From positions 1 to 64,000 of the forward strand of contig NZ_JABJVX010000008.1 of NCBI RefSeq assembly GCF_013155465.1: a stretch of DNA of 64,000 nt. Reading direction: 5' to 3'. The position numbers and the translations under genes were made by a program. This stretch comes from Alterinioella nitratireducens (lineage in GTDB: Bacteria; Pseudomonadota; Alphaproteobacteria; Rhodobacterales; Rhodobacteraceae). Below, piece after piece: positions 5,069 to 19,982 of the stretch. Under the pieces are notes generated by a model that was not told where the DNA came from, searched no databases, and saw only the letters and a list, made by a program, of their open reading frames with translations. Position 1 is the stretch's first letter. Every line of letters begins with the position of its first letter.

Positions 5069-6238
5069 ATGTTCACACGCCTCAGCCTCGCCCTTACCCT
5101 CTTCCTCGGCCTTCTGGCCGCCCCCCTTCATGCCTTCGAGACCCAGGCCAGCGCCGCCTATGTGATCGACCACAATACCGGCCAGGTGCTGCTGGATGTC
5201 GATGCCGATGTGCCGCTGCCGCCCGCCTCCATGTCCAAGCTGATGACCATCAACATGGTGTTCGAGGCTCTGGAGGATGGCCGCCTGACGCTGGAAACGA
5301 TGCTTCCCGTAAGCCAGGAGGCGATGGATTACGGCGGCTCGACCATGTTCCTTACCACCCGCGACCGGGTCAGCGTCGAGGATCTCCTGCGCGGGGTCAT
5401 CGTGCTTTCGGGCAATGACGCCAGCGCGGTGCTGGCCGAGGCGCTCAGCCCCGATGGCACCGAAGCAGGCTTCGCCGACCTGATGACGCAGCGCGCGCGT
5501 CAGTTGGGGATGATGAATTCCACATTCCGCAATTCCAATGGCTGGCCCGAGCTCGGCCATGTCATGTCGGTGCGCGACCTGGGCATCCTGGCCCAACGGC
5601 TGATCACCGAGTTCCCGCAATATTACCCCTATTTCGCCGAGACCGAATTTGCCTTTGACGGTCGCGCGCCCGATAACCGCTTCAACCGCAACCCCCTGCT
5701 GGCGCTGGGGATCGGGGCCGACGGGCTCAAGACCGGGCATACCGAGGCCGCGGGCTACGGCCTGGTCGGGTCCGCGCAGCAGGGCGACCGCCGGGTGACT
5801 TTCGTGATTGCCGGTCTGCCCAGCGCCGAGGCGCGCGCGCGCGAGGCCGAGCGCATCGTCAACTGGTCGTTCCGCCAGTTCGCCGAGCGTGAGGTCGTGG
5901 CCCCCGGCACCCTTGTCACCGAGGCGGAAGTGTTCCTGGGCAATGCCGCCACCGTGGGCCTCGAAACCGCCGCGGGTGTAACCATGCTGCTGCCCGCCCT
6001 GATCGACGACGGGGTCGAGGCCGAGGCAGTCTTTACCGGCCCGATCCCCGCGCCCATCGCCGAGGGTCAGGAACTGGGCTACCTGGTGATCCGGGTCGAA
6101 GGGTTCGAGGATCGCACCGTGCCGCTCCTGGCCGCGGAAAGCGTCGGCATGGCCGGGTTCATGGACCGCCTGCGCACCGCCGCGGACCAGGTCATGCAGA
6201 TGATCCGCAACGGCACCGACACTCTGGCCGCGGGCTGA
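5069..6238 (+). CDS. dacC: D-alanyl-D-alanine carboxypeptidase (penicillin-binding protein 5/6 family)
   Basis: This peptidase S11 enzyme trims the terminal D-Ala of peptidoglycan pentapeptides in the periplasm. Motifs: nucleophile SMSK at residues 54-57, SGN at 114-116, KTG at 221-223. A signal peptide (LFLGLLAAPLHAFE) opens the protein. A C-terminal PBP5-type domain and a terminal amphipathic segment, typical for membrane attachment, follow. The length of 389 fits the family. It lies between the SPOR lipoprotein and tmk on the same strand. The symbol is by family and could equally be dacA. Confidence 0.9.
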   Translation: MFTRLSLALTLFLGLLAAPLHAFETQASAAYVIDHNTGQVLLDVDADVPLPPASMSKLMTINMVFEALEDGRLTLETMLPVSQEAMDYGGSTMFLTTRDRVSVEDLLRGVIVLSGNDASAVLAEALSPDGTEAGFADLMTQRARQLGMMNSTFRNSNGWPELGHVMSVRDLGILAQRLITEFPQYYPYFAETEFAFDGRAPDNRFNRNPLLALGIGADGLKTGHTEAAGYGLVGSAQQGDRRVTFVIAGLPSAEARAREAERIVNWSFRQFAEREVVAPGTLVTEAEVFLGNAATVGLETAAGVTMLLPALIDDGVEAEAVFTGPIPAPIAEGQELGYLVIRVEGFEDRTVPLLAAESVGMAGFMDRLRTAADQVMQMIRNGTDTLAAG

Positions 6239-6247
6239 GGGCCCCCC

Positions 6248-6859
6248 ATGTTCCTCTCGCTCGAAGGGATCGACGGCTCGGGCAAGAGCACGCAGGCAAC
6301 GCGGCTGGCGGATACCCTGCGCGCGGCCGGGCATGACGTGGTGCAGACCCGCGAACCGGGTGGCGCGCCGGGGGCCGAGGAAATCCGCCGCCTGCTGGTC
6401 GAAGGCGACCCCGAGCGCTGGTCGCCGGAGACGGAAACGCTGCTCTTCAACGCCGCCCGCCGCGACCATCTGGAACGCACGATCCGCCCCGCGCTTGAGG
6501 CAGGCAAGATCGTCATCACCGACCGCTTCGCCGATTCCACCCGCGTCTACCAGGGCGCCACACGCGGCGACCTGCGCGGCTTTGCCGATGCCATCCACAA
6601 GGCCGCCATCGGGGTGGAGCCCGACCTGACCCTGATCCTCGACATGGACCCTGCGGCCGCCCTGACCCGCGGCCTCGCCCGCAGTTCCGGCGAGGACCGG
6701 TTCGAGGAATTCGGCCTGCCCTTCCAGCAAGCCTTGCGCGCGGGCTTCCTCTCCTTGGCCGACGAATTCCCCGCCCGCTGCCACATCATCGACGCGGGCC
6801 GGGACGCCGACGCCATCGCCGCCGACATCCGCGCCCTCGTCCTGGACCGCCTGACATGA
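6248..6859 (+). CDS. tmk: Thymidylate kinase
   Basis: It phosphorylates dTMP to dTDP with ATP for DNA synthesis. The P-loop GIDGSGKST starts at residue 7; the REPGG dTMP-binding motif is near 36-40; TDRFADS is the DR(Y/F) motif; and a lid region near RSSGEDRFEE is present. 203 residues is standard. Its TGA overlaps the holB ATG as ATGA, so the two are translationally coupled, a common alphaproteobacterial arrangement. Confidence 0.97.
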   Translation: MFLSLEGIDGSGKSTQATRLADTLRAAGHDVVQTREPGGAPGAEEIRRLLVEGDPERWSPETETLLFNAARRDHLERTIRPALEAGKIVITDRFADSTRVYQGATRGDLRGFADAIHKAAIGVEPDLTLILDMDPAAALTRGLARSSGEDRFEEFGLPFQQALRAGFLSLADEFPARCHIIDAGRDADAIAADIRALVLDRLT

Positions 6860-7989
6860 GCACGCTTGGTGAGATGGAAGCCGTCCCCGAGGCCGACCGC
6901 GCCCCCGGTGCCCCGCATCCGCGTGAGACGCAGCGCCTGTTCGGGCAGGAGATTGCCGAAACCACCATCCTCGACGCCTTCAATTCGGGCCGGATGCACC
7001 ACGCCTGGCTGCTCACGGGCCCCAAGGGCGTCGGCAAGGCCACGCTGGCCTGGCGCATCGCGCGGTTTCTTCTGGCCACCCCCGAGGATCAGGCCGACGC
7101 GCTCTTTGCCGCCCCGAAACCGGACACCCTCGACATCCCCGCCAACCACCCCGTCGCGCATCACATCCACGCCATGGCCGAGCCGCGCCTCTTTCTTTTG
7201 CGCCGCCCCTGGGACGTGAAGACCGCCAAGCTGAAGACCGTCATCACGGTCGAGGAGGTGCGCAAGCTGCACCCGTTCTTCGGCATGTCCGCCGCTGACG
7301 GGGGCCGCCGCGTGGTCATCGTCGATGCCGCCGACGAGATGAACCCGAGTGCGGCCAATGCGCTCTTGAAAATGCTGGAGGAACCGCCCAAGGGCGCCAC
7401 GCTGCTGCTGGTCTCGCACCAGCCCTCGCGCCTGCTGCCGACGATCCGCTCGCGCTGCCGCACGCTGCCGCTGGCCACGCTCGGGGCCGAGGACATGCGC
7501 GCCGCGCTTGGGCAGGCGGGCATCGACGCGCCGGAAAACGCGGGGCTGGCCGAGCTTGCGGGCGGCTCCGTGGGTGAGGCCGTCGCGCTGATCCAGCAAG
7601 AGGGGCTGACGCTCTATGCCGAGATCCTGAACCTCGCCGCCACCCTGCCCCGGATGGATCGTGGCCTCGCCGCAAAGCTCAGCCAATCCGCGGGCGCGCG
7701 CGGGGCCGATGACCGGTTCACCCTCACCCTCGACCTGATCGACCGCTTCATGGCCCGGCTTGCCCGCACCGGCGCCACCGGATCGCCCCCGCCCGAGATC
7801 CTGCCCGATGAAGCGCAACTGCTGACCCGCCTCGCGCCCGACATGGGCGCAGGCCGCGCCTGGGCCGATCTTGCCGCCGATCTGACGGCACGCGCCCGCG
7901 CCGGCAAGGCGGTCAATCTTGACCCTGCCGCGCTGATCCTTGATATGTGTCTGAGAATTGGCAGCACCGCCGAGCGTCTGCCCCTCTGA
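6856..7989 (+). CDS. holB: DNA polymerase III subunit delta'
   Basis: Clamp-loader subunit of the replicative polymerase. The N-terminal AAA+ module includes a P-loop-like GPKGVGKATLAW (about 56-67), VVIVDAADEMNPSAANALLK as Walker B/sensor region, and SRCRTLPL as the arginine-finger region. The 377-residue length fits alphaproteobacterial delta' subunits, which carry a longer N-terminus than that of E. coli. It overlaps tmk by 4 bases and is followed by tatD, a frequent order. Confidence 0.93.
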   Translation: MSTLGEMEAVPEADRAPGAPHPRETQRLFGQEIAETTILDAFNSGRMHHAWLLTGPKGVGKATLAWRIARFLLATPEDQADALFAAPKPDTLDIPANHPVAHHIHAMAEPRLFLLRRPWDVKTAKLKTVITVEEVRKLHPFFGMSAADGGRRVVIVDAADEMNPSAANALLKMLEEPPKGATLLLVSHQPSRLLPTIRSRCRTLPLATLGAEDMRAALGQAGIDAPENAGLAELAGGSVGEAVALIQQEGLTLYAEILNLAATLPRMDRGLAAKLSQSAGARGADDRFTLTLDLIDRFMARLARTGATGSPPPEILPDEAQLLTRLAPDMGAGRAWADLAADLTARARAGKAVNLDPAALILDMCLRIGSTAERLPL

Positions 7990-10594: not shown

Positions 10595-11329
10595 ATGATC
10601 GACCGTATCCGCACCGCCCTTCGCACCCGCCGCGCCCGCCAGCGCGCCCGGCGGGCCGAGTGGCGGGCGCGCTTCGGCGCCGATCTGGATGCACCCGGCG
10701 CCCGCCGCGCCGCGCGCCATGACATGAATTTCTGGGATCACGGCTTTGTCCGGCGGCTGTGGAAGAACCGCAGCGAGGTTGCCCCCGGCATCTGGCGCGG
10801 CAATCAGCCGTCGCCCGAGGATGTCGCCGGACTTGCCGGCATGGGCATCCGCACCATCATCAACTTCCGTGGCCGCAATCAATGGGGCAGCTACCTGCTG
10901 GAGGAGGAGGCCTGCGCGCAACACGGCATCACGCTGGTCAACGGGCGGCTCTATTCCAGCTCCGCCCCCACGCCCGAGCAGATCCACGCGGCCCTCGACC
11001 TGATCGAGGCCGCCGAAAAGCCCGTCTTCATCCATTGCAAATCCGGCGCCGACCGTGCCGGGCTGGCCTCGGTCCTCTACCTGCTGTCGCAAGGCGGCGA
11101 TCCGGCCCGGGCGGCGCGGCAGTTGCACTGGACCCGCGCGCATCTTTCCATTTCGCGCACCGGCATCCTCGACGCCTTCCTCGCCGCCTATGCCAAGGCG
11201 CGGGCCGAGACGGGGATCGATTTCCTCGAATGGGTCGACACGGAGTATGATTTCCGGACAGTTGAGTCAGTTTTTTCTGACAAACGTGTCAAGAATCGCC
11301 TGCTGGACTGGATGCTGCGCCGTGAGTGA
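10595..11329 (+). CDS. Tyrosine/dual-specificity phosphatase family protein
   Basis: The 244-residue cytoplasmic protein carries the CX5R phosphatase signature HCKSGADRAG, with Cys148 as nucleophile and Arg154. The upstream GIWRGNQPSPEDVAGLAGMG and TIINFRGRN match the bacterial DSP-like fold. An Arg-rich N-terminus (about 1-40) precedes the domain. It overlaps the ABC exporter start, suggesting co-expression and perhaps a role in envelope or polysaccharide regulation. The substrate is unknown. Confidence 0.88.
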   Translation: MIDRIRTALRTRRARQRARRAEWRARFGADLDAPGARRAARHDMNFWDHGFVRRLWKNRSEVAPGIWRGNQPSPEDVAGLAGMGIRTIINFRGRNQWGSYLLEEEACAQHGITLVNGRLYSSSAPTPEQIHAALDLIEAAEKPVFIHCKSGADRAGLASVLYLLSQGGDPARAARQLHWTRAHLSISRTGILDAFLAAYAKARAETGIDFLEWVDTEYDFRTVESVFSDKRVKNRLLDWMLRRE

Positions 11330-13067
11330 GCCGTCGAAAAACCTGCTGATCCGCCTCTGGCGCGAACATGTCGTGGGGTTCTGGCGCCTGCTGATCGTGG
11401 CCTTCATCCTGATGGTGATCGAAGGCAGCACATTGGGCGCGATCTCCTACCTGATCCAGCCCCTCTTCGACCTTGTTTTCATTGACGGAAACAGCTCTGC
11501 CGTCACCTGGGTCGCGCTGGCGATCTCGGGCATCTTCGTCCTGCGCGCGATCTCGGGCTTTGGCCAGCGCGTGTTGATCGTGACCATCGGGTTGCGGGTG
11601 ACGACGGCCCTGCAAACGAGGCTTCTGGGCCACCTCCTCAGCCTCGATGCGCGGTTCTTCCAGGACAACGCGCCAGGATCTCTTATTGAGCGTGTTCGCG
11701 GGGATACCCAAGCATTGCAAGGGGTTGCAAGCGCCACGCTGATGACGATCGGGCGCGACACGATCTCGGTGATCTCGCTTCTGACGGTGATGCTGATCTC
11801 GGACTGGACCTGGGCGCTGCTGGCGCTGGCGGGCGTTCCGATCCTGATCCTGCCGCTCTCGCTGCTGCAAAAGCTGATCCGCAAGACCACCCGCGCCGCG
11901 CGCGAGGCGGCAGCAAGGCTCTCGACGCAGCTTGACGAGATCTTCCACGGGATTATTTCCATCAAGGTCAACAGGTTGGAAGATCACGAGGCAACCCGCT
12001 TCGACCAGGAGGTCGACCGTTTCCTCGACGCCCAGTTGCGTGCCGAGCGCGGCAAGGCGGCCAATCCGGCCGTGATCGACGTCATCGCCGCCATCGGCTT
12101 CTTCGCCGTCCTGATCTATGGCGGCCAGCAGATCATCGCGGGCGAAAAGACTGTGGGCGAATTCATGTCCTTCTTCACCGCGCTGGCGCTGGTCTTCGAC
12201 CCCCTGCGCCGCCTCTCTGCCGTCTCGGGCCATATCCAGGCCGCGCTGGCCTCGCTGGAGCGGCTCTATTCGGTGCTGGAGGCGCGGCCCACGATCCTGC
12301 CGCCCGCCTCGCCCAAGCGCCTGAAATCCGGTGATATTCGCTTCGATTCCGTCAGTTTTTCCTATGGCGACACGCCCGTGTTGCGCGGCTTTGACCTGAC
12401 CGCCGAGGAAGGCAGGACCACCGCGCTTGTCGGCCCCTCGGGCGCGGGCAAAAGCACCGTGTTCTCGCTGCTGACCCGCCTCATCGACCCCGATCTGGGC
12501 GAGGTCAGCATCGCGGGCACCGCCATCGACGCCGCCGATCTGGAAGAGCTGCGCAATGCCATCGCGCTGGTCGGCCAGGAAACCGCGCTGTTTGACGAGA
12601 CCATCGCGCAGAACATCCGCCTTGGCCGCCTCGACGCCACGGATGCGCAGGTACAGGCCGCCGCCGAGGCCGCACATGTCACGGATTTCGCGGACGGTTT
12701 GCCGCTTGGCCTGAACACACCCGTGGGCCCGCGCGGCGGATCGCTTTCGGGCGGTCAACGCCAGCGCGTCGCCATCGCCCGCGCCATGTTGCGCGATGCG
12801 CCGATCCTGTTGCTGGACGAGCCGACCTCGGCCCTCGACGCGCGCTCCGAGCAACTGGTGAACGAGGCGCTGCGCCGCCTTTCCGCCGGACGCACCACCT
12901 TGGTGATCGCGCATCGCCTGTCCACCATCCGCGCCGCCGATCATATCGTGGTCATGGACCAGGGCGCGGTGATCGAGCAAGGCACCCACGAGGCGCTGAT
13001 GGCGCGCAAGGGCGCCTATGCGCGGCTCAACCAATTGCAGTCCGCGGGCCTCAGCGCACCCCTTTGA
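11322..13067 (+). CDS. ABC exporter, MsbA/LipA-like fused permease-ATPase
   Basis: A half-transporter of 581 residues. Six membrane segments occupy about 18-300. The nucleotide-binding domain has Walker A GPSGAGKST (371-379), signature LSGGQ (475-479), Walker B ILLLDE (495-500) and H-loop IAHRLS. Such exporters flip lipids or export drugs from the inner membrane. The GTG at 11322 (MSEPSKNLL) overlaps the phosphatase stop and is preferred; the open frame further upstream is antisense-free shadow of that gene. The cargo is not predictable, but lipid flipping is likely. Confidence 0.9.
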   Translation: MSEPSKNLLIRLWREHVVGFWRLLIVAFILMVIEGSTLGAISYLIQPLFDLVFIDGNSSAVTWVALAISGIFVLRAISGFGQRVLIVTIGLRVTTALQTRLLGHLLSLDARFFQDNAPGSLIERVRGDTQALQGVASATLMTIGRDTISVISLLTVMLISDWTWALLALAGVPILILPLSLLQKLIRKTTRAAREAAARLSTQLDEIFHGIISIKVNRLEDHEATRFDQEVDRFLDAQLRAERGKAANPAVIDVIAAIGFFAVLIYGGQQIIAGEKTVGEFMSFFTALALVFDPLRRLSAVSGHIQAALASLERLYSVLEARPTILPPASPKRLKSGDIRFDSVSFSYGDTPVLRGFDLTAEEGRTTALVGPSGAGKSTVFSLLTRLIDPDLGEVSIAGTAIDAADLEELRNAIALVGQETALFDETIAQNIRLGRLDATDAQVQAAAEAAHVTDFADGLPLGLNTPVGPRGGSLSGGQRQRVAIARAMLRDAPILLLDEPTSALDARSEQLVNEALRRLSAGRTTLVIAHRLSTIRAADHIVVMDQGAVIEQGTHEALMARKGAYARLNQLQSAGLSAPL

Positions 13068-13275: not shown

Positions 13276-14220
13276 ATGAAGTTGACATGCAACACGCCCT
13301 GGAAGGGCGCGCTTGCCCATATCGTCGCCACGCTGACCGCCATCGCGGTGGTCGTTGCGCTGCCTGCAGCCGCACAGACGGTTACCCGTTCCACCACATC
13401 CGCCGCCGACCTGGCCGCCACGGCACAAGGCCCCGACCGGTCGCAACTGGGTGTCTATTACCGCCAGCTTGAACAGCGCCTCGTCTCGCAAGGCAACCTG
13501 CGCCAGGATCGCAACGCGGGCGCGCTGGATGCGGCGACGCTCGCGCGCAATTTCATGGCCATCGCGATGCGCACCGAATACGGCTCGGGCATGTCCGGCA
13601 GCGGTTCCGCTGCCCCCCTGCGCCGCTGGGAACAGCCGATCCGCATCGGCGTGCGCTTTGGCGCCTCCGTCCCCGCCGCGCAGCAACGCAGCGATCAAGC
13701 CGCGCTGACCCGCGTGGCGCAGCGCCTGCAACGCGCCAGCGGCCATCCCGTCGGCCTGACCAATGGCGCCGCCAATTTCCATGTCCTGGTGCTCAGCGAT
13801 GCGGAACGCGCCAATGCCGGTCCGGTCCTGCAACAGATGGTCCCCGGCCTCAGCCGCAACGCCACCCGCGCCGTGACGCGCATGGGGCGCAACACCTTCT
13901 GCATGGTCATCGCCATCCCCGCCGCCGACCCGAACCAGGGCATCGCGCGGGCCATCGCCATCGTGCGCGCCGAGCATCCGCCCCTGATGCGTCAATCCTG
14001 CATGGAGGAGGAGCTGGCCCAGGGCATGGGGCTGAGCAATGACAGCCCCGCCGCGCGGCCTTCGATCTTCAATGATGACGAGGAGTTCGGCGTGCTGACG
14101 CGCCATGACGAATTGCTGCTCAGGATGCTCTACGATGACAGCCTGCGCCCCGGCATGAGCCCGGGCAGCGTCAACCAGCATATCGGCCAACTGGCGCAGG
14201 CGGTGCTTGCGCGCGGCTGA
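13276..14220 (+). CDS. DUF2927 domain secreted protein
   Basis: A 314-residue protein with a signal peptide ending LPAAAQT (cut near residue 34). It has the DUF2927 landmarks IRIGVRFG in the middle and SCMEEELAQGMGLSNDS near residue 240, then SIFNDDEEFG and HDELLLRMLYD. The pattern resembles a zincin-like fold in which a conserved Glu-rich helix precedes the motif, but a canonical HExxH is absent. The function is unknown. It stands alone between 208 and 455 bp of noncoding DNA. Confidence 0.8.
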   Translation: MKLTCNTPWKGALAHIVATLTAIAVVVALPAAAQTVTRSTTSAADLAATAQGPDRSQLGVYYRQLEQRLVSQGNLRQDRNAGALDAATLARNFMAIAMRTEYGSGMSGSGSAAPLRRWEQPIRIGVRFGASVPAAQQRSDQAALTRVAQRLQRASGHPVGLTNGAANFHVLVLSDAERANAGPVLQQMVPGLSRNATRAVTRMGRNTFCMVIAIPAADPNQGIARAIAIVRAEHPPLMRQSCMEEELAQGMGLSNDSPAARPSIFNDDEEFGVLTRHDELLLRMLYDDSLRPGMSPGSVNQHIGQLAQAVLARG

Positions 14221-14290: not shown

Positions 14291-14675
14291 TCCACACCAC
14301 ACCCTTGGGGCACCCGACCGGGCAGCAGCCGGGCACGAATGAAGAACGGTTGGTGCGGGCTGGCGCGCGGCGTATCGCGCTGCGCGCCTGTGCTACACAC
14401 TTCTATTTGGGGCTCTTTTCGTGGTTTGCAAACCGGTCCCGGCGCAGAACCGGTTGCGCGCGCCTGCACACAAATGCCCGTGATCGCAAAGTGATGCGCG
14501 CGGGCGGGATTGTGAACCGGCTCACCCGCCGCAAAACACGCGCGATTTTATGCAATCCCCGCCTCACCCCTCGCATTTTAACGCAATCTCGGATTTAATC
14601 GGGTCCAAGCAAGACGGACCCGCCGCTAAAAGACGGGCCATCAGATCAGAGCAGCAATCCGGCCCCGGGGCGACC
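14291..14675. other. Noncoding stretch upstream of the glycosyltransferase
   Basis: About 385 bases with no convincing coding frame. A GGGTCC/GGACCC hairpin occurs near 14600. I see no tRNA or known riboswitch signature; it presumably holds the promoter and leader of the next gene. Confidence 0.4.
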
Positions 14676-17090
14676 ATGGCAAGACACCAATACACGATTC
14701 TGTCGATGATGAAGGATGAGGGCCATTCGCTGGTGGAATGGGTCGCCTATCATTCGCTTCTGGGCTTCGACAATATCTGCGTCTACACCAACAATTGCCA
14801 GGACGGCACCGACGAGATGCTGATCCGGTTGCAGGAAATGGGCTATGTGCAGCATTTCCGCAATGACGTGCCCAAGGGCAAGAAACCGCAGCCCAACGCG
14901 CTGCATCTGGGGATGAAGAACCCGGAAGTGATGGACAGCGACTGGGTGCTGACGATGGACGCGGATGAATTCGTGAACATCAAACTTGGCGACGGCACGG
15001 TGCAGGAGCTGGTCGATGCCATGCCCGACGATACCGAAGGGATCATGATCACCTGGCGCTTCTACGGCTCGAACGAGATCCTCGATTGGCGGCCCGGCCT
15101 GGTCACCGAAAGCTACACCCGCGGCGCGCCCGACAAGTTTCGCAAGGGATGGGGCGTCAAATCCATGGTGCGGCCCTTCCCGAACATGAAATTCGGCATC
15201 CACCGCCCCTCGATCAAGCAGCGCAATTCCAACCCCGAACGGGTGGCGCAGCTTGAGGCGCTGAAATGGGTCAATGGCGGCGGCAAGCCGATGACGTCGA
15301 GCTTCAAGACCGGCGGCTGGCGCTCTACGGGTCCGACGCTGAGCTACGAATTCGTCGAGCTCAATCACTATGCCGTGAAAAGCTACGAGGCGTATCTGCT
15401 GCGCCGGATGCGGGGCAATGTGAACAACAAGGAGGACAAGTATAACGCCTCCTATTTCTCGATCTTCGACCGCAACGAGGTGGAACATGATGGCGCCGCC
15501 CGCCACGCGCCCAAGGTCAAGGCCGAGATGGAGAAGATGCTGGCCGATCCGAAACTGGCCGAATTGCAGGAGGCGGCCCTGGCCTATCACCAGGCCAATG
15601 TCGACCGGTTGCGCGCCACCGGCGAGTATGACGAATGGGTCGATAGCCTGCGCGAGGCGGGCAAGAAGCGTATCGACCAGCTGGATGAGGTTTTGTTCAC
15701 GCAGCACCTGCCGAAAGAGACGCAGGAACTGATCCGCAAGATGCAGGCCGATGGCGTGCCTGACAAGCAGATCGCCAAGATGATCGCCCGCTCCACCGGG
15801 ATCCGCAATGCCGAGAAGCGGCAGGATGCGACCGATGCCGAGGAGTTGGCCAAGATCACCGGCGTCGCGCTGGAGGGCGGTGAAGCGGCGAAGCCCGAGG
15901 AAGAAACACCCGCGCCGGAGGAGGAGGCAAAGGCCCGGACCCCGGCGCTGGAGGATCTGCCCAAGGAGACCCGCAAGAAGCTCGTCACCCTGATCCAGAA
16001 GGCCAAGGACACCGGCAAGACGCTGGATGAAAACGGCAATATCGTCTCGACCGAGGATGACGGGCTGCCGATGCGGCCCAAGCTGGCCCCGCCCTTCGCC
16101 GGCAATGGCCGCAAGGTCGTGGTCACGACAATGAAGAACGAGGGCCCTTACCTGCTGGAATGGATCGCGCATTACCTGAATATCGGCTTCGACGATTTCG
16201 TGATCTTTTCGAATGATTGCACCGATGGCTCCAACCTGGTGCTGAACCGGCTGGATGCGATGGGCGTGATCGAACATTACGACAACCCCATCTCAGGCCG
16301 CCAGGACCCGCAGCGCCGCGCCTATAGCCGCGCCAACAAGATGCCCACGGTCCAGGAGGCCAGTTGGGTTCTGATCGCGGATGCCGATGAATTCCTCAAC
16401 ATCCATGCGGGCGATGGCAGCATCGACGCGCTGATCTCGGCCTGCCCGCCCGAGACCGAAGCGATTTCCGTCAACTGGCGTTTCTTCGGCTCGGCCGGGC
16501 AGAAACACATGGCGCCCGAACCGGTGACCCGCCGCTTCACCCGCGCCTGCAACGTGGTGGAGCCGGAAAACGGGCTGGTCTGGGGCTTCAAGACCCTCTT
16601 CCGCCCCGCCAGTTTCGACTACATGGGCGTGCATCGCCCCAAGTTCGAGAAGAAACGCCCGGTGCTGGACGACCAGGTGCATTGGGTCAATGCCAGCGGC
16701 GCGCCGATGGGGCCGAAATACATGCGCACGGGCTGGCGCTCGAACAAGGATATCGTGTCCTACGAGTTCGCGCAGATGAACCATTACGCGATCAAGAGCC
16801 GTGAGGAATTCTTGCTGAAAAAGCTGCGCGGCACCGCCAATTCCAAGGACGACAGCCGCATCGACCTGGGCTATTGGGAGAAATTCGACCTCAACGCCGA
16901 GGAGGATAATTCGATCCGCTCGGGCGATATCGAGGCGCGGATTGCGCGGCTCTTGGAGGATAGCGACCTGGCCGCGCTGCACCGCGCATCGCTGGATCAT
17001 GCCCTGCGCACGATCGAGATCCAGATGGAGGATGAAGACCTGCGCGCCTTTGTCGAGGCCGAAAAAGTCGAGGACGTGGCGGCGGAATAG
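14676..17090 (+). CDS. Double-domain glycosyltransferase (family 2-like, Glyco_tranf_2_4)
   Basis: 804 residues with two homologous catalytic halves. Half one (about 1-340) has ILSMMKDEGHSLVEWVAYHS, TMDADEF, ITWRFYGS, FGIHRP and MNHYA-like FVELNHYAVKS. Half two (about 478-760) repeats these as VTTMKNEGPYLLEWIAHY, IADADEF, VNWRFFGS, MGVHRP and QMNHYAIKS. The DADEF motifs are the likely metal/sugar-nucleotide binding DxD. The halves are joined by a ~100-residue Glu/Lys/Pro-rich linker. It probably builds a cell-surface or storage glycan; acceptors are unknown. The ATG at 14676 directly precedes domain one; an earlier in-frame start is not supported. Confidence 0.85.
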   Translation: MARHQYTILSMMKDEGHSLVEWVAYHSLLGFDNICVYTNNCQDGTDEMLIRLQEMGYVQHFRNDVPKGKKPQPNALHLGMKNPEVMDSDWVLTMDADEFVNIKLGDGTVQELVDAMPDDTEGIMITWRFYGSNEILDWRPGLVTESYTRGAPDKFRKGWGVKSMVRPFPNMKFGIHRPSIKQRNSNPERVAQLEALKWVNGGGKPMTSSFKTGGWRSTGPTLSYEFVELNHYAVKSYEAYLLRRMRGNVNNKEDKYNASYFSIFDRNEVEHDGAARHAPKVKAEMEKMLADPKLAELQEAALAYHQANVDRLRATGEYDEWVDSLREAGKKRIDQLDEVLFTQHLPKETQELIRKMQADGVPDKQIAKMIARSTGIRNAEKRQDATDAEELAKITGVALEGGEAAKPEEETPAPEEEAKARTPALEDLPKETRKKLVTLIQKAKDTGKTLDENGNIVSTEDDGLPMRPKLAPPFAGNGRKVVVTTMKNEGPYLLEWIAHYLNIGFDDFVIFSNDCTDGSNLVLNRLDAMGVIEHYDNPISGRQDPQRRAYSRANKMPTVQEASWVLIADADEFLNIHAGDGSIDALISACPPETEAISVNWRFFGSAGQKHMAPEPVTRRFTRACNVVEPENGLVWGFKTLFRPASFDYMGVHRPKFEKKRPVLDDQVHWVNASGAPMGPKYMRTGWRSNKDIVSYEFAQMNHYAIKSREEFLLKKLRGTANSKDDSRIDLGYWEKFDLNAEEDNSIRSGDIEARIARLLEDSDLAALHRASLDHALRTIEIQMEDEDLRAFVEAEKVEDVAAE

Positions 17091-17095
17091 CCGGA

Positions 17096-17755
17096 TCAGT
17101 AAGGGATCGCGTGGCCGTCCCAGGTCTCGAAACAGCCGCTGGTCTTGGGCGACAGCACGTCGATGCGCCCGATCAGGCCGGTGGCCGAGGTCTCCGGCGT
17201 CAGGTCAGCGGCCTTGCCGCCCATGTCGGTCTGCACCCAACCGGGGTGGTAGATACCGACGGAGATGCCTTCGGACTTCAACTCAGCAGCAAGGTTCCGG
17301 CCCAGATTGGTCGCCGCCGCCTTCGACGCGCGGTAGATATAGGAGCCGCCCGGCGCGTTCGTGGTGCTGCCCATCTGGCTGCTGATGATGGCGATCTTTG
17401 CCCCGCTCGTGGCGCGCAATTGCGGCAGGAACGCCTGCACGGTCAGAAACACGCCGGTGACGTTGACCGCGAAGCCCTGCGCCCAGAGGTCGGGGGGAAA
17501 GCCGGTCTCAAGCTCATGCAGCTTGTCGAGGTAGACGCCTGCATTGCAGACCAGCAGGTCGAGCGGCTCATCATGGCGCGCAGACAGCGCCTTGATCGCG
17601 CCGGGATCGGTGACATCGACCTCATCCAAGGCAAGATCGGAGTCGGCCACACCGCCACCGGTGCTGGTCGCCACGACATGAGCGCCGCGCGCGGCCAGCC
17701 CTCGGGCCAGTTCCAGGCCGATCCCGCGCGATGCCCCGGTGACCAGCGCCCGCAT
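17096..17755 (-). CDS. Short-chain dehydrogenase/reductase
   Basis: A classical SDR of 219 residues: nucleotide-binding GASRGIG at 7-13, NAG (CNAGVYLDK), catalytic Ser in AIISSQMGS and YRASK as YxxxK. The C-terminal GIYHPGWVQTDMGG is typical of the group that includes C-factor-like proteins. Substrate unknown. The ATG at 17755 is chosen since MRALVTGASRGIG begins the Rossmann fold. It starts 1 base past the DUF1178 stop, so the two are co-transcribed. Confidence 0.88.
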   Translation of the reverse strand: MRALVTGASRGIGLELARGLAARGAHVVATSTGGGVADSDLALDEVDVTDPGAIKALSARHDEPLDLLVCNAGVYLDKLHELETGFPPDLWAQGFAVNVTGVFLTVQAFLPQLRATSGAKIAIISSQMGSTTNAPGGSYIYRASKAAATNLGRNLAAELKSEGISVGIYHPGWVQTDMGGKAADLTPETSATGLIGRIDVLSPKTSGCFETWDGHAIPY

Positions 17756-17756
17756 C

Positions 17757-18203
17757 TCAGTTCCGCCTCGCCTTGGGCATGACCGGCAGGGGGGCCACCG
17801 GCACGCCATCGTCGATCAGGGCCTTGGCCTCCTCGGGCTTGGCCTCGCCATGGATCAGGCGTTCGGGGGCCTCGCCCAGATGGATGCTGCGCGCCTCCTG
17901 CGCGAAATTGCTGCCGACATAGGTGGAATGCGCATCCAGATGCTTGCGGAACGCAGCCAGAGCCGCCTCCATCTGCGTGGCGGGACCGGAGAGCGAGACC
18001 GGAGCCTCAGCCGGTTCCGCCGTCTCCGCCGCGCCGGATTTCTTCTTGACCTGCGGGGCCATCATGGCCTTCTGCACGTCTTCGCCGCCGCAGACCGTGC
18101 AGGACAGCAGGCCGCGCCGCGACAGCGCATCGAACGCGTCGGCAGATTTGAACCAGCTGTCAAAGCTGTGCCCGTCGGAACATTTCAAAGTGTATCGGAT
18201 CAT
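17757..18203 (-). CDS. DUF1178 family protein
   Basis: 148 residues. The N-terminal MIRYTLKCSDGHSFDSWFKS followed by CTVCGG gives a zinc-ribbon-like pattern (Cys8, then CxxC near 35-38). A Lys/Ala-rich linker and a conserved C-terminal block (SNFAQEARSIHLGEAPERLI) follow. This is a conserved alpha/betaproteobacterial family with no established function. It lies directly upstream of the SDR. Confidence 0.88.
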   Translation of the reverse strand: MIRYTLKCSDGHSFDSWFKSADAFDALSRRGLLSCTVCGGEDVQKAMMAPQVKKKSGAAETAEPAEAPVSLSGPATQMEAALAAFRKHLDAHSTYVGSNFAQEARSIHLGEAPERLIHGEAKPEEAKALIDDGVPVAPLPVMPKARRN

Positions 18204-18258
18204 GGTGGCGGCACATTAGCCCCTGGCGGAAGAGAATCAAGTTTTTCGCGCCGGATTG

Positions 18259-18738
18259 TCAGCCCGCGCGACCGGGATCGAAGTTTCGCAGGATTTTCTT
18301 GAGATCGGGTTCACTTATCCGCGATGCGGCCTTGGCCGGCGTGAACCATTTGCGCCTGCGCTGACCCGCCTCGGGGAAATCGTCGGCGAGGTCTTGCACC
18401 TCAAGCGGAAAGATGGCGGCGATGCAGGGGATCGTGCCGCCCTCGGGCAGCGTCTTGGTGTAGGAATAGAACCCCAGGCAGGCTTCGCTGACGACGCCAC
18501 GAATGCCCGCCTCCTCCCACGCTTCCTGCGCGGCGGTGGCGGCGGGGGTGCAGCCATCCATCGGCCAGCCCTTGGGAAGGATCCAGCGGTCGGTGTCGAG
18601 GCTGGTGATCAGCAGCACCTGCAGCTGCCTTTTGCGGCGGCGGTAGGGCAGCGCGGCAAACTGCGTGCGCGGGTCCTGCTTGCGGGCGGCACCCAGGCGC
18701 ATCGGCGCCTGGTGGGAGGTATCGCTGCTCTTGGTCAT
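18259..18738 (-). CDS. Nudix hydrolase
   Basis: A 159-residue Nudix protein with RWILPKGWPMDGCTPAATAA and QEAWEEAGI as the core of the Nudix box (REUXEEXGU form, Gln replacing Arg). The family splits nucleoside diphosphates linked to another moiety; the PKGWPMDG form resembles diadenosine or diphosphoinositol polyphosphate hydrolases. I prefer the ATG at 18738; an in-frame GTG at 18762 adds 8 residues. It is divergent from the deacetylase-family gene. Confidence 0.85.
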   Translation of the reverse strand: MTKSSDTSHQAPMRLGAARKQDPRTQFAALPYRRRKRQLQVLLITSLDTDRWILPKGWPMDGCTPAATAAQEAWEEAGIRGVVSEACLGFYSYTKTLPEGGTIPCIAAIFPLEVQDLADDFPEAGQRRRKWFTPAKAASRISEPDLKKILRNFDPGRAG

Positions 18739-18851
18739 GCTCGCCTGTTCGCGCCATTTCACTTCTGCTGCGGTCTAGAATATATGCTTTCCTGCCCGCA
18801 TTCAAACGCAACACCTTGTGGTTGCATGGGAAACTGGACGACACCGAGGAC

Positions 18852-19982
18852 ATGGACCGCACGATGCCCCTGCCCCGCCCGCTTTTCCTGGGGTCCGAGA
18901 TCTATCGCGGCTCCAGCTACGGGCTGACGCATCCGCTGCGCGTGCCGCGCGTCTCGACCGTGATGGACCTGACCCGTGCCCTTGGCTGGTTGTCGCCCGC
19001 GCAATATCGCGCCTCGCCGCGCGCCAAACCCGGCGCGCTGGAGATCTGGCACACGCCCGCGTACCTCGCCGCGCTGCAACAGGCCGAGGCAACGCAAACC
19101 GTCACGCCCGAGATACGCGACCGGCACGGGATCGGCACCATGTCGAACCCGATCTACGCGGAGATGTTCCGCCGTCCCGCCACCGCCGCCGGGGCGTCCC
19201 TGCTGGCGGGCGAGCTTCTGGCGGCGGGCGGGATCATCCACCATCCCGGCGGCGGCACCCATCACGGGATGCCCGACCGCGCGGGCGGGTTCTGCTACCT
19301 CAACGATCCGGTGCTGGCGATGCTGGCCCTGCGCCGGGCGGGCGCGCGGCGCATCGTCTATGTCGATATCGACGCGCATCACATGGACGGAGTCGAGGTG
19401 GGGTTCGCGGGCGATCCCGACACAAGGCTGATCTCGGTGCATGAGGAGAAACGCTGGCCCTTCACCGGCGCGCTGACGGATACCGGCGGCGGAAATTGCT
19501 TCAACCTGCCGGTGCCGAGGGGGTTCAACGATAGCGAGATGGCGTTGGTGCGCGACGCCCTGATCCTGCCCGCCACCGCCGATTTCGCCCCCGATGCCGT
19601 GGTGCTGCAATGCGGGGCCGACGCGGTGCTGGAGGATCCGCTCTCGCGCCTTGCCCTCTCGAACAACGCGCATTGGGCCGTGGTCCGCGCGCTGATGGAC
19701 CTCGCGCCGCCGCGCCTGCTGGTGCTTGGCGGCGGCGGTTACAACCCGTGGTCGGTCGGGCGGCTCTGGACCGGGGTCTGGGCCACGCTGAACGGGCACG
19801 ACATCCCCGACCGCCTGCCGCCGGGGGCCGAGGCCGTCTTGCGCGCGTTGGTCTGGGAACGGGCAAGCGCGGGCCGCAACCCGCCCGAACATTGGTTCAC
19901 AACCCTGCGCGACGCCCCGCGCGACGGCCCGATCCACGAGGCGGTCCGCGACCGGCTGGCGGTGCTCCGCGCCCGTCTATGA
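18852..19982 (+). CDS. Histone deacetylase family protein (acetoin-utilisation/APAH type)
   Basis: A zinc-dependent deacetylase fold: IHHPGGGTHHGM with the paired active-site His, GFCYLNDPVLA, the metal-binding DIDAHHMDGVE (DxH), and LVLGGGGYNPWS near the end. Bacterial members deacetylate polyamines or small acetylated substrates and perhaps proteins. The active site is intact. The start is uncertain: the ATG at 18852 (MDRTMPLPRPLF) is used, with alternatives TTG 18816 and ATG 18864. It stands alone, followed by converging small secreted-protein genes. Confidence 0.85.
   Translation: MDRTMPLPRPLFLGSEIYRGSSYGLTHPLRVPRVSTVMDLTRALGWLSPAQYRASPRAKPGALEIWHTPAYLAALQQAEATQTVTPEIRDRHGIGTMSNPIYAEMFRRPATAAGASLLAGELLAAGGIIHHPGGGTHHGMPDRAGGFCYLNDPVLAMLALRRAGARRIVYVDIDAHHMDGVEVGFAGDPDTRLISVHEEKRWPFTGALTDTGGGNCFNLPVPRGFNDSEMALVRDALILPATADFAPDAVVLQCGADAVLEDPLSRLALSNNAHWAVVRALMDLAPPRLLVLGGGGYNPWSVGRLWTGVWATLNGHDIPDRLPPGAEAVLRALVWERASAGRNPPEHWFTTLRDAPRDGPIHEAVRDRLAVLRARL

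Follow-up and report, generated by a model that had tools for sequence, protein, structure and literature searches.

The window, a stretch of 64,000 nucleotides from Alterinioella nitratireducens, carries at 14676..17090 on its plus strand a gene for a two-domain glycosyltransferase of 804 residues, recognised from its open reading frame, its PF13704 and PF01697 matches, its motifs and a comparison of starts. The start at 14676 is backed by 5 of the 11 fused orthologues that share its genomic setting (L035, L037, L041, L042 and L043), backing meaning that the longest open frame begins at the residue equivalent to position 1 of domain A; the remaining six have longer frames upstream, as does the window itself, with an in-frame ATG at 14550. 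If the start is at 14676, 455 nt separate the gene from the preceding one, which ends at 14220, and downstream it is met by a convergent gene whose end lies 5 nt away. The preceding gene encodes a DUF2927 protein (PF11150; 13276..14220, plus strand), and before it lies a gene for an MsbA-like ABC exporter (11202..13067, plus strand) that scores 515.3 bits, below the NCBIfam MsbA cut-off of 602; each is present at 9 of the 12 places with the window's setting, the window included. On the other side, SDR, DUF1178 and Nudix-like genes (all minus strand; the name Nudix is our assumption) and a histone-deacetylase-like gene (plus strand) occupy 17096..19982 and serve as markers of the setting. The DUF2927 gene is a neighbour in the closest relatives only, and a functional tie with the two-domain gene is putative at most. 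The exporter, too, is treated here as neighbourhood and not as a partner, since it is nearly confined to one setting: the 24 places of the superoxide dismutase/sarcosine oxidase setting described below yielded one weaker MsbA-like match (L072, 42%, opposite strand, more than 4 kb off). Neither a sulfotransferase gene next to the window's gene nor an evident polysaccharide cluster was seen. At the gathering score Rfam gave no family between 13000 and 18500, and an upstream RNA or promoter was rejected on this result and because the lone promoter-like site falls inside the gene. Between 14150 and 17250 there are nine terminator-like sites, where shuffles predict 3.1, and every one of them is on the minus strand. 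Third-position G+C in the codons hardly varies, at 82-88% over A, the linker, B and four neighbouring genes, and thus gives no sign of a recent foreign insert.

The protein is built from two halves of the same kind. Domain A (residues 1-330; 14676..15665, plus strand) and domain B (residues 475-804; 16098..17087, plus strand) are each predicted to adopt a GT-A fold, and the motifs recur in the same order in both: KDEG at 13 and KNEG at 487, DADEF at 95 and 569, WRF at 127 and 601, HRP at 176 and 653, and NHYA at 230 and 702. Aligned with each other, the halves share 38.7% identity over 287 residues with a score of 546, far beyond the 300 shuffles of one half (mean 35, maximum 65). The sequence-only reading, which had proposed two full motif sets in one chain with both DADEF motifs intact, is borne out on both points. 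Two stretches of the protein match PF13704 (139.1 bits, cut-off 27.5), a broad model with matches in 12 of 14 control genomes and above its cut-off in 7, and two stretches match the GT92 family PF01697 (59.1 bits, cut-off 23). NCBIfam gave no match for the whole protein, and an identity as CruG for A alone was discarded at 17.8 bits against a cut-off of 600. The highest 19-residue Kyte-Doolittle mean is 1.03, and this absence of a membrane-like stretch points to a cytosolic enzyme.

The two domains are joined by a linker of 144 residues (331-474; 15666..16097, plus strand), which comprises a helical block to about residue 385, a low-confidence acidic stretch and a helix at 430-446. Its first 45 or so residues form the helical block, which is kept in relatives, and the linker is the counterpart of the C-terminal tail of A. 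It had been described as acidic, a label that does not suit it overall (29 acidic against 24 basic residues) and that holds for 386-430 only, with 13 acidic and 5 basic. Several separate A proteins (L050, L052, L055, L059 and L063) carry long C-terminal tails rich in lysine, alanine, proline and threonine; the linkers of the fused forms that we examined are shorter than those tails, and in L014 and L042 they are rich in alanine and proline.

A full-length model built from 37 aligned rows reached a mean pLDDT of 83.7 and a pTM of 0.51, the individual domains being modelled mostly with confidence and their mutual placement with low confidence; A modelled alone gave a pLDDT of 80.3 and a pTM of 0.86. 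The best solved match of B was Populus GalS1 (8d3t, 8d3z; Z 18.1, 3.2 A, 224 residues), the next entry other than GalS1 standing at Z 11.3, and that of A was again GalS1 (Z 16.0, 3.3 A, 224 residues), followed by a non-GalS1 entry at Z 11.4. GalS1 thus leads the best other entry by 6.8 (B) and 4.6 (A) Z units among 1000 and 998 chains aligned, respectively; it was absent from the best 50 Foldseek rows for the whole model and emerged on re-alignment. Each domain is therefore predicted to have a GT-A fold nearest a GT92 structure, and the second half, for which loss of the catalytic fold was the point to be checked, is predicted to keep it.

Conservation was assessed over 38 rows of A and 36 of B from the paired family; truncated, broken and duplicate members, L012, L019 and the A of L064 among them, were left out. 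The DxDE motif is present in all 38 A rows and all 36 B rows, and the full DADEF in all of the A rows and in 33 of the B rows, the exceptions being L043, L058 and L060. Sixty positions are fixed at 95% or more to the same residue in A and B, whereas at 19 each domain has a fixed residue of its own. Histidine is fixed in A and B alike at three positions (60/534, 176/653 and 231/703); for GalS1, a histidine has been reported as the catalytic base in the available part of PMC11062476. Both halves are under purifying selection: in four close pairs dN/dS was 0.02-0.17 for A, 0.07-0.13 for B and 0.02-0.23 for the linker, the values from L037-L040 being rough, with dS at 0.8-1.1. Sequence, predicted fold, conservation and selection thus all support the presence in one chain of two catalytic domains that are complete and conserved.

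When the domains were placed in a tree of 106 rows together with single-domain relatives, A and B formed two separate, old clades, the A clade adjoining single-domain proteins of about 400 residues and proteins of 600-977 residues; some of the deep joins rest on long branches. The halves are therefore not recent copies of each other, and a recent internal duplication as the origin of the protein is rejected on this tree. Among these relatives of A, L026-L034 comprise eight proteins of 600-676 residues and one of 977; in the two whose tails we read, L026 and L028, the C-terminal half resembles by eye a divergent methyltransferase, Pfam being blank there in L026.

A and B also occur as separate genes, and the order A-B is maintained across pairs. 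At 12 of the 18 split junctions, the stop of A and the start of B overlap as ATGA; at the remaining six, B has its nearest start somewhere from 8 nt before the A stop to 4 nt after it. Mapped on a tree built from 35 rows of A joined to B, 16 of them fused and 19 split, the split or fused label needs three changes, against a mean of 11.8 with shuffled labels, none of 500 shuffles being as low as three. The root of this tree was set at L020, a fused form that branches first in the A and B clades of the 106-row tree as well. The simplest reading would be that the ancestor was fused, that the genes parted twice and that they joined again once, in L045, with the caveats that L020 and L018 have long branches, L020 has an unusual composition, some forks are weak, and L012 and L064 stand outside the tree.

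A search of 295 genomes of the bacterial family, one per genus as listed, gave some match at E 1e-10 in 234. With at most three candidates scored per genome, so that the counts are lower bounds, A and B share one open frame in at least seven genomes (G000, G242, G186, G144, G149, G231 and G252), lie as neighbouring pieces in at least eight (G145, G159, G049, G283, G256, G080, G065 and G229) and are broken in at least one (G123). In G084, G011, G234 and G288 no match to the B query exceeded 41% identity. G167 has three B-like pieces (contigs C17, C55 and C57), each no more than about 220 bases from the end of its contig, with no close A; a gene present in several copies may have interrupted the assembly there.

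We compared the surroundings at 41 places (the window, L035-L064 and L069-L078), where two main settings are found. At 12 of them (the window, L035-L044 and L047), A-B lies beside DUF1178 and Nudix-like genes, in all 12 as a fused gene, with the deacetylase-like gene in view at most; no sulfotransferase homologue was found within the flanks examined, for the window positions 8-26 kb. Four genomes (L073-L076) have A without a B partner at this same setting, in some cases with further PF13704 genes nearby, and to judge from these sequences A may work alone. Another 24 places lie near superoxide dismutase and/or sarcosine oxidase genes, with four fused forms (L045, L069, L070 and L071) and 20 separate ones, among which B is broken in L078 and A in L064; the last of the 41, L077, has B only, close to a contig end. 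In this second setting a sulfotransferase-like gene follows B at 22 of the 24 places (it is missing in L056 and L071, and in two pieces in L064), so that the earlier statement that the gene stands alone is true of the window, with its upstream gap and convergent neighbour, but not of most relatives elsewhere. Five of the six sulfotransferase-like genes that we scanned pass the PF00685 cut-off (L052, L049, L069, L070 and L072), L046 falling below it, and a third glycosyltransferase gene is present on the opposite strand at 8 of the 24 places. Further combinations occur: L049 joins domain B and a sulfotransferase domain in one frame (5680-7755), L045 encodes A-A-B as one protein of 1198 residues, and in L048 and L049 A-A is accompanied by B. 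The sulfotransferase link suggests a sulfated product in the superoxide dismutase/sarcosine oxidase setting, with no direct carry-over to the window's gene, which has no such neighbour.

What does the protein do? We consider it probable, if well short of assured, that it is a soluble bifunctional enzyme whose two GT92-like domains add two different sugars in sequence to one acceptor. It would be a cytosolic protein with two GT92-like (PF13704) GT-A domains, each probably using DxDE to bind a divalent metal and a nucleotide sugar of its own, in the usual GT-A manner. The domains would differ in specificity and would add their sugars successively to one shared acceptor, presumably a glycan that is exported or displayed afterwards. 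The linker would tether both sites, and in relatives the translation of A and B from touching genes may keep them together. We know of no activity for any bacterial relative found here, and family membership does not determine the sugar. As far as the available parts of PMC6646851 and PMC11062476 go, GT92 enzymes transfer galactose and GALS1 can add arabinopyranose as well, and by this analogy UDP-galactose would be a reasonable first candidate donor.

The earlier proposal had left a choice between a two-site polymerase and the addition of two sugars. As a polymerase, A and B would alternate on a growing chain to give a heteropolymer, in the manner of chondroitin polymerase K4CP, heparosan synthase and LARGE1, and Foldseek, given the whole model, indeed fills its first five rows with the two-domain enzymes LARGE1 and K4CP, at 8-9% identity and an rmsd of about 23-24 A, with heparosan synthase 2 in twelfth place; the A-A-B protein and the sulfotransferase-like neighbour would also fit a longer sulfated glycan. 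However, the two-domain alignments have an rmsd of about 19-27 A, so that these matches show common domain type and order, two GT-A domains in series, and no geometry; the mutual placement of the domains in the model is of low confidence. In addition, no exporter common to both settings was found among the genes compared at the 41 places, and relatives with A only exist. Nothing points specifically to a polymerase, whereas the separate old clades and the 19 class-fixed differences give better support to the addition of two sugars; we regard the polymerase as unlikely.

A doubled single activity, in which both domains add the same sugar and so raise the dose or the grip on a repetitive acceptor, would agree with the 60 positions, motif cores included, that are fixed alike in A and B, but these parted long ago, differ at the 19 class-specific residues and are maintained as a pair in constant order, which makes this explanation decidedly unlikely. 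It is also doubtful, and hardly to be expected, that A, B and the sulfotransferase-like gene form a portable module in which a soluble GT92-GT92 polymerase makes a sulfated heteroglycan of two alternating sugars; if this were so, it would be one kind of sulfated polysaccharide synthesis in bacteria that is not tied to a membrane synthase. It is very improbable that one of the domains is a pseudo-enzyme with a structural or regulatory role: the three B rows that deviate from the full DADEF could be read in this way, but DxDE is intact in 74 of 74 rows and both domains are under purifying selection.

Dual-domain glycosyltransferases are already known, and the GT92-GT92 form, which occurs both split and fused, adds a modest new variant to them. 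It shares two GT-A domains per chain with E. coli K4CP (GT2), Pasteurella heparosan synthase 2 and LARGE1 (described in the accessible portion of PMC9746966), but a phmmer search of PDB sequences with the two-domain protein gave no match up to E 10, and whole chains fail to superpose. Its likeness to GALS1, the plant beta-1,4-galactan synthase of GT92, lies in the best solved match of both domains and in the PF01697 score; unlike GALS1, which in the part of PMC11062476 available has one GT92 catalytic domain together with a CBM95 and a stem, it has two catalytic domains, no CBM among its Pfam matches and 10-12% identity. The Rhodobacter capsulatus genes rcc01081 and rcc01932, a lead towards capsules and gene-transfer agents, were considered as possible relatives and rejected, being named as capsule genes with no tie to the PF13704 pair in the excerpts of PMC10218006 and PMC4158056. 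In the literature searched, a set outside which most subscription papers lie, no title among those listed concerned the two-domain protein. The characterised GT92 members named in the available parts of PMC6646851 and PMC11062476 come from plants and a nematode, and we here describe a soluble GT92-like pair in bacteria. The forms met in nature make a series (A by itself, A and B touching, A-B fused, A-A-B fused, and B fused to a sulfotransferase domain), which lets one ask why two enzymes of one pathway join or part. If the sulfotransferase link holds, marine Rhodobacterales would make a sulfated glycan that we did not find described in the literature searched.

Single PF13704 proteins of Rhodobacterales, annotated on plasmids as 'glycosyltransferase family 2 protein', have the same domain, but one each (L002, L003) or one plus a different C-terminal half (L026, L028). 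One hundred plasmid records match, all below 60% identity; the best fifteen of the 100 span about 0.9-1.1 kb, which would correspond to one domain matched by both halves, and they provide no evidence for the tandem form on plasmids. The A. nitratireducens genome itself has seven PF13704 stretches above cut-off, two of them within the two-domain gene. It retains the superoxide dismutase/sarcosine oxidase region, with an ATP-grasp gene (PF14305) there; neither A nor B nor the sulfotransferase gave a match on the contig concerned in the searches. Its best sulfotransferase match (40% identity, above the PF00685 cut-off) is on contig C40. A polysaccharide cluster around the C40 paralogues was looked for and rejected, the translations by eye being those of TCA-cycle genes, which we take from them to be lpd, sucB, sucA, sucD, mdh, sdhA and sdhB. 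Between 60000 and 97000 of C40 (L066 and L067), two PF13704 glycosyltransferase genes are interspersed among this run, together with a PF03567 sulfotransferase-like ORF and the PF00685 homologue of the gene that follows B elsewhere.
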